From: an uncultured Acidimicrobiia bacterium
GTDB lineage: Bacteria; Actinomycetota; Acidimicrobiia; Acidimicrobiales; CAIXPF01
DNA: 64,000 nt
Assembly: GCA_903921205.1 (NCBI GenBank)
Contig: CAIXPF010000034.1
Span: forward strand, 51,844 to 115,843
Direction of reading: 5' to 3'
Shown: positions 32,227 to 50,605 of the stretch, piece by piece
Position numbering within the stretch: the first letter of the stretch is position 1
Layout: each line of letters starts with the position of its first letter
Notes under the pieces: model-generated
Told to the model about the DNA's origin: nothing
Seen by the model: only the letters and a program-made list of their open reading frames with translations
Database searches by the model: none
Program-made: the position numbers and the translations under genes

Positions 32227-32322
32227 GTCGTCTCCCCCTGTAGCGCTCGGCCCGACGGTACCGCGCCTGCGCCCCACGCCGCCGAGGCCGCAGCGGGTTG
32301 CGCAGCGGGCGATCCGCAGGTT

Positions 32323-32441
32323 GTTTGTAGCGAAGTGGTCGGCAGTACCCCGGCGCCGATCGCCCTGCACGCTCGAACATGCAGGTCAGAGCGTCGTGCC
32401 GGTTGCGGTCACCGTGACGGTCGAACCATTTCGCTACAAAC
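32323..32441 (-). repeat. Intergenic inverted-repeat element, copy A
   Basis: GTTTGTAGCGAAGTGGTC (32323-32340) / GAACCATTTCGCTACAAAC (32423-32441); core GAACATGCAGGTCAGAG 32375-32391; second copy at 50325. Confidence 0.85.
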
Positions 32442-32525
32442 CAGCCGGACGGGGACCGCACGCCGCGCCCGAACCGAGGTTGGCCGGCGACGCCCCCCTT
32501 TCGGACCGGGTACGGATCGACGTCG

Positions 32526-49802: not shown

Positions 49803-50264
49803 TCAGCCCTCGGCGGCCTGCTTGACGTTGGCCAGCATCGCGCTCACCGAGGCCTTGACCGCTTCACACCAGTTGGCGACCGCGGACTCGCCGCCACGCG
49901 CAATACCATCAGGTACGGTATGGAGTCGGTAGTGCTCGCCCAGACGCGTTCCGCCGGCGGTGGCCTCGAGGCTGTAGCGCCAGTGGGCGATGTCGGCCTC
50001 GCGGCCCAGCGTCCAGAAGCCGAACTCCCGACCCGGGGTGGCTTCGGTGATCTCCACCTTCGCCTTCCACTCCATCTTCCCGGCCTTGTTGTGGCCCTCG
50101 AACCAGTCGCCGACGTTGCCGCTACCGCCGTCGAGCCATTCGCCACCGACGTTCTGGGTGGACCACTCGCCGTAGCGGGCCATGTCGGACACCAGCGCAT
50201 ACACCGCTTCCGGCGGGGCGGCGATCTCGGTGTAGTCGTCGTGGGAGAAGATCGGGTCGCTCAT
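49803..50264 (-). CDS. SRPBCC family protein (polyketide cyclase/START-like)
   Basis: TEIAAPPEAVYALVSDMARYGEWSTQNVGGEWLDGG...WRYSLEATAGGTRLGEHYRL. Confidence 0.9.
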   Translation of the reverse strand: MSDPIFSHDDYTEIAAPPEAVYALVSDMARYGEWSTQNVGGEWLDGGSGNVGDWFEGHNKAGKMEWKAKVEITEATPGREFGFWTLGREADIAHWRYSLEATAGGTRLGEHYRLHTVPDGIARGGESAVANWCEAVKASVSAMLANVKQAAEG

Positions 50265-50324: not shown

Positions 50325-50443
50325 GGTTTGTAGCGAAATGGTTCGCGCCGCGGCGCCACCGGGACGCAGCATCCACGAACATGCTGGTCAGAGAGTCGCG
50401 CCGCGAAGCATCCGACCGGCGCCGAACCATTTGGCTACAAACC
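50325..50443 (-). repeat. Intergenic inverted-repeat element, copy B
   Basis: GGTTTGTAGCGAAATGGTTCG (50325-50345) / CGAACCATTTGGCTACAAACC (50423-50443), 20/21 complementary; core GAACATGCTGGTCAGAG 50377-50393. Confidence 0.87.
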
Positions 50444-50505
50444 AGATGCGAAACGGTTCTCCGAGACCCCTTCAGCCCACCGGCCCGACCCACCACGCCG
50501 TCGTA

Positions 50506-50595
50506 CACCGAATCGCCGCCGATTCGCTGCGGCCTCGTTTCACCGAATGCCACCGAATCGCCGCCGGCGCGTTTCACCGAATCGACGTCGAATCG
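50506..50595. repeat. CACCGAATCG-type hairpin repeats, related to 32526-32600
   Basis: CGAATCGCCGCCGATTCG 50509-50526 is the reverse complement of the locus A 18-mer; further ACCGAATCG copies; CGTTTCACCGAAT at 50536 and 50570. Confidence 0.85.
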
Positions 50596-50605
50596 TTGCT
50601 CGGGT

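Follow-up and report, generated by a model that had tools for sequence, protein, structure and literature searches.

The window analysed in this study is a 64-kb stretch (64,000 nucleotides) of DNA from an uncultured Acidimicrobiia bacterium, and it harbours two copies, A and B, of a short element with inverted ends. Copy B comprises a left end, GGTTTGTAGCGAAATGGTTCG (50325..50345, plus strand; located by an end search in the window and the genome), an inverted right end, CGAACCATTTGGCTACAAACC (50423..50443, minus strand), and a core, GAACATGCTGGTCAGAG, from position 50377. The two ends agree at 20 of 21 positions, exactly as the original prediction had described them. Taken as GAACATGCTGGTCAGAGAGTCGC (50377..50399, plus strand), the core is a member of the motif AAnnnSCWGGTCASAGCGTTGC and may be bound by a bending factor of the IHF type. 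Copy A, considered as the entire element, has the 121-bp form and occupies 32322..32442 on the plus strand, with ends at 32322-32342 and 32422-32442 and a core at 32375-32397. A search of the 64-kb window with the end motif recovered copies A and B only, and 100 shuffled windows gave 0 matches; the element is real and a chance match is excluded. Copy B is flanked by two genes identified by Pfam, namely an SRPBCC gene (Polyketide_cyc2, PF10604; 49803..50264, minus strand) and an MFS transporter gene (PF07690; 50606..51886, minus strand, 5' boundary approximate) which runs in the same direction and whose 3' end faces the element. Copy B was correctly predicted to lie upstream of the start codon of the SRPBCC gene (ATG ending at 50264), with 60 bases between them instead of the 62 bp originally given. 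Both copies in the window lie upstream of the start of one gene and downstream of a second gene. A separate palindrome around GATTCGACGTCGAATC / GATTCGRCGTCGATTCG was also observed at 50500-50600; it is abundant, with dozens of intergenic copies, and likewise occurs in intergenic regions of genomes G001 and G005.

The source genome (G000; 4.36 Mb, 208 contigs), a sister species (G001) and another species of the same genus (G002) were then compared. About 14 dispersed, intergenic copies of the 119-121 bp element were identified in G000, where all 26 matches to the end motif are paired, some 100 bp from each other (backwards-read control: 0). G001 shares these ends and contains about 20 copies, paired at the G000 distance except for a few matches whose partner falls beyond the mismatch limit. 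In another 58 relatives, two of them from the same genus, the end motif is absent or represented by single chance-like matches. Twelve of the 14 G000 copies occupy orthologous intergenic positions in G001, where the flanking DNA is approximately 90% identical. Across these 12 pairs, identity reaches 93% in the left end, 95% in the right end and 90% in the core, compared with 80% and 82% in the spacers and 71-74% in the 150-bp flanks. A length of 119-121 bp is held across 34 copies from the two species, and non-orthologous copies keep it even though their spacers are mostly unrelated. Because the ends and core are better conserved than the spacers and flanks of orthologous pairs, sequence comparison indicates that selection acts on three blocks, the two ends and the core, at fixed distances. 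Two orthologous pairs (L090/L117 and L099/L114) are, unlike most, identical from end to end, spacers included, and one of their ends reads GGATGTAGC in place of GTTTGTAGC.

Short, dispersed, intergenic elements with terminal inverted repeats could also constitute a MITE family, in which the terminal repeats would be transposase sites, the core would be an accessory host-factor site as in Correia elements, and the copies would be old insertions. The presence/absence differences between the sister species G000 and G001 are in keeping with such an origin; because the intergenic DNA concerned changes fast, gains are not distinguishable from losses there. Against it, direct repeats of at least 4 bp border 11.8% of the copies as opposed to 9.0% of shuffled flank pairs, and element-free sites differ by larger indels instead of a neat insertion of 119 bp. 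Searches for target-site duplications and for clean empty sites found neither. Furthermore, all end matches in G000 and G001 belong to paired elements, and therefore no autonomous parent is present in these genomes. The orthologous copies have diverged interiors and preserved ends, a pattern that is not given by neutral decay. The element is thus not a product of random insertion; the orthology and the lack of target-site duplications agree with the original prediction, which held that random insertion with target duplications would favour a MITE. In view of this evidence the MITE explanation appears unlikely, although it deserves some weight.

To follow the core outside these two species, the 22-bp motif AAnnnSCWGGTCASAGCGTTGC was scanned against GTDB genomes and was detected in 118 contigs, against about 15 expected by chance (a rough estimate assuming uniform bases). 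Among the matches listed, nearly all contigs belong to Actinomycetota. Four settings of the core were recognized: the centre of elements with inverted ends, the position just after tRNA genes, the neighbourhood of tyrosine integrases, and the vicinity of phage ends or terminase genes. Inverted repeats with a score of at least 10 were found 15 times around 128 core matches (0.55 expected), and 13 of the 14 repeats measured have their dyad within the core. The ends surrounding the core are unrelated and specific to the genome, a feature that is also compatible with a MITE family. In G002, a search with the core alone revealed the same layout as in G000 with other ends, mainly TGTCTGTGCACCT, for which 41 end matches were obtained, mostly as pairs 106-108 bp apart. 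Flanking homology between the G002 elements and those of G000/G001 was looked for and none was found, so that common positions were rejected. The Olsenella genome G399, which was reached through a locus titled Olsenella sp. An293, contains 105 matches to the end TGAGGGTATGTACACC and many core-centred elements, in some of which the core is degenerate. Its inner end pairs are 83-84 bp apart in 18 of the 18 examined, and its ends are often doubled with a 22-bp period. Several further features were recorded: a conserved CGAGAAGAACG immediately after the core in L363-L392 of G399; a conserved unit of core plus inverted partner, CTGACCTGCAC..GTGCAGGTCAG, in Streptomyces (L180, L182, L217, L245, L259 and L277), joined to variable flanks as though it marked the edge of a mobile segment; and a core in Streptomyces plasmid records (H61-H63), at a distance of about 800 bp from their ends, one of which records, NZ_CP108371.1, is a linear plasmid.

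The original prediction had interpreted the element as a structured RNA with a 20-bp stem made by the ends and a conserved apical part supplied by the core, supported by an internal hairpin with a compensatory change. The internal stem sequences do pair (CAGCAT/ATGCTG in copy B and CCTGCA/TGCAGG in copy A), but conservation of the stem by compensatory change was not borne out. Over the 32 distinct copies the stem positions pair 45.8% of the time compared with a shuffled mean of 46.3%, with 323 of 500 shuffles as high, and show no excess of covariation; a stem of at least 5 bp is present at that place in 4 of 34 copies, whereas about 6 are expected. RNAalifold retained no pairing beyond the outer ends and detected neither a compensatory pair nor a double change. 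On the shuffled columns, stem counts and RNAalifold together the covarying hairpin was rejected, and a known RNA family was discarded because six copies gave no match in Rfam. The ends are nevertheless largely complementary in all copies and across families, and single copies give stable folds. Within one genome, however, the stem sequence itself is kept, beyond what pairing alone would need, and the core is found at sites without such a hairpin. In Olsenella G399, the 6-bp stretches that link doubled sites show complementarity at 23 of 48 positions as opposed to 106 of 128 in the outer sites, which points to DNA sites and not to an RNA stem. The RNA explanation is therefore very improbable; of the predicted selected structure, the selection and the conserved core stand, and the selected feature looks like a set of DNA sites at fixed spacing.

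A regulatory role for these DNA sites was also considered, in which they would be the operators of a lineage-specific transcription regulator looping DNA between the ends, with the neighbouring genes as its regulon. Conserved sites at fixed spacing, and the location of both window copies upstream of a gene start, would suit operators. By gene context, however, the G000 copies comprise at least 6 between convergent genes, which is unusual for operators, 7 between codirectional genes and at most 1 between divergent genes; these counts are approximate because the gene calls are crude. The neighbours, taken from open reading frames with four genes annotated by Pfam, share no obvious common pathway. 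We regard this explanation as improbable. The core has no uniform orientation relative to the genes around it, which speaks against a structured RNA as well. Many copies are placed between convergent genes or downstream of a gene, and the core additionally occurs at phage att and cos regions. The proposed cis-regulation of the SRPBCC gene was not upheld, and this gene is probably a neighbour and not a functional part of the copy B element.

Twelve of 119 core matches are located 0-5 bp after an intact tRNA gene, compared with 5 of 5900 random positions, and a pair of direct repeats often follows. An integrase gene was identified by Pfam after the tRNA-adjacent core in L269 and L286, and beside the core in L297, a viral contig. 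By signature, an integrase was detected at 2 of 147 core loci; the signature is too strict, as the Pfam results for these three loci indicate. In G001, a core directly after a tRNA-Arg gene (C3:32822-32844, L147) may mark the edge of an integrated element. The core was found in 132 phage records, all of them from actinophages, and among the matches listed nearly all are non-coding. In phages Bernal13 and Phrappuccino the core precedes the tyrosine integrase by 48 and 68 bp, respectively, and it also lies near the genome ends and small terminase genes of phi673, large mycobacteriophages such as Dove, and actinophage-like contigs. Some phage matches are placed elsewhere in non-coding DNA, and the core is therefore not restricted to att and cos. 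In phage lambda, attP has the order C'-H'-P', and IHF acts at both attP and cos (cosB). The order of tRNA gene, core and direct repeats is, by analogy, that of lambda C'-H'-P', and a site common to attP and cos regions, as the core is, is the hallmark of a host factor, IHF in the case of lambda. Owing to the tRNA-adjacent cases, the core was considered as an integrase arm-type site; this was rejected since so few core loci had an integrase by signature and since the core is also present at cos regions and in integrase-free chromosomal elements; the adjacent direct repeats would make more suitable arm sites.

Since its core also turns up where phages of this phylum integrate and package their DNA, the element probably represents a folded complex of DNA and protein and not an RNA switch, and on these grounds we read it as inverted end, bend site and inverted end. 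The explanation that we favour, at somewhat better than even confidence and by analogy with RIB/BIME-1, is that of a DNA-level element in which an IHF-like bend at the core joins two inverted, protein-bound ends. The element would act as double-stranded DNA, and the core at its dyad would be the site of an Actinomycetota-wide, sequence-specific host factor with the role that IHF plays in enterobacteria. Bending by this factor at the core would join the two inverted end sites, which would be bound by a second, lineage-specific protein, and a compact nucleoprotein loop would result in the intergenic DNA. Nucleoid folding, a transcription-unit boundary and the upkeep of an old mobile element are candidate purposes in the cell.

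Actinobacterial IHF, the first candidate for the factor that may bend the core and loop the ends, was discovered as a phage integration factor and is essential in mycobacteria. Integration of phage L5, a relative of D29, is mIHF-dependent. The D29 attP was examined as a positive control and set aside: its integration region has a partial core, CAGGTCAGAG, just after the tRNA-like core, which is not above noise. Actinobacterial IHF (NF041260) was found in 12 of 12 actinobacterial genomes with elements that were tested and was not found in the single genome from outside the actinobacteria that was tested, whose core match probably arose by chance; its presence in all the former is uninformative because this IHF is phylum-wide. 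Counting against an IHF-like factor at the core, published studies reported that the protein binds without sequence specificity and that ChIP-seq gave no common motif (PMC10028186, PMC6155035). We tentatively raise the possibility that the core is an overlooked specific site of mIHF/sIHF that marks sites of integration, packaging and chromosomal folding, with the ends serving partner proteins. A literature search for the exact core motif found no paper.

Among known systems, the element is closest to RIB/BIME-1 and then to Correia elements; it may work in a similar way and is a member of neither, since its ends are not REPs and no RAYT, target duplication or sequence relation was found. According to the account of Boccard and Prentki (1993) given in PMC2817692, the RIB/RIP (BIME-1) elements of E. 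coli bind IHF and are located mainly at the 3' ends of genes. As far as that account goes, the likeness consists in two inverted repeats, dispersed in intergenic DNA, around a bending-factor site, which in the present element is a putative one suggested by the use of the core at att and cos. The ends described here differ in not being palindromes like REPs (their folding energies are -0.4 to -0.9 kcal/mol where they fold), and the core is another motif, 22 bp long and GC-rich, which does not correspond to the enterobacterial IHF consensus. A REPIN/RAYT system was rejected because the Y1 transposase (PF01797) was not found in G000, G001 or G002 and the ends are not palindromic; the elements number about 14-50 copies per genome. 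Correia elements (NEMIS) of Neisseria are likewise short with inverted ends, have an internal IHF site, which is a point in favour of the MITE explanation, and are nearly always intergenic in their 155-bp form (PMC2229807). The present element has a candidate IHF-like site in the corresponding place and differs in lacking target-site duplications and any known sequence relation, and in having ends that vary by genome around a constant core. Likeness to lambda extends to the P' arm of attP, where the core stands between the tRNA/crossover region, which it directly follows, and the direct repeats, and to the IHF site of cosB, matched by the core near cos in actinophages; however, the core is unrelated to the enterobacterial consensus and almost confined to Actinomycetota, and the chromosomal elements are without a recombinase.

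These comparisons suggest that RIB-like elements built of two ends plus a bend may have arisen independently outside Proteobacteria. If the core is indeed a specific site of actinobacterial IHF, a single 22-bp motif would, in all of Actinomycetota, mark the sites of phage integration and packaging as well as elements that fold the chromosome. The occurrence of one motif at att, at cos and in selected chromosomal elements makes the question of IHF specificity directly testable, whether the factor is IHF or another protein.
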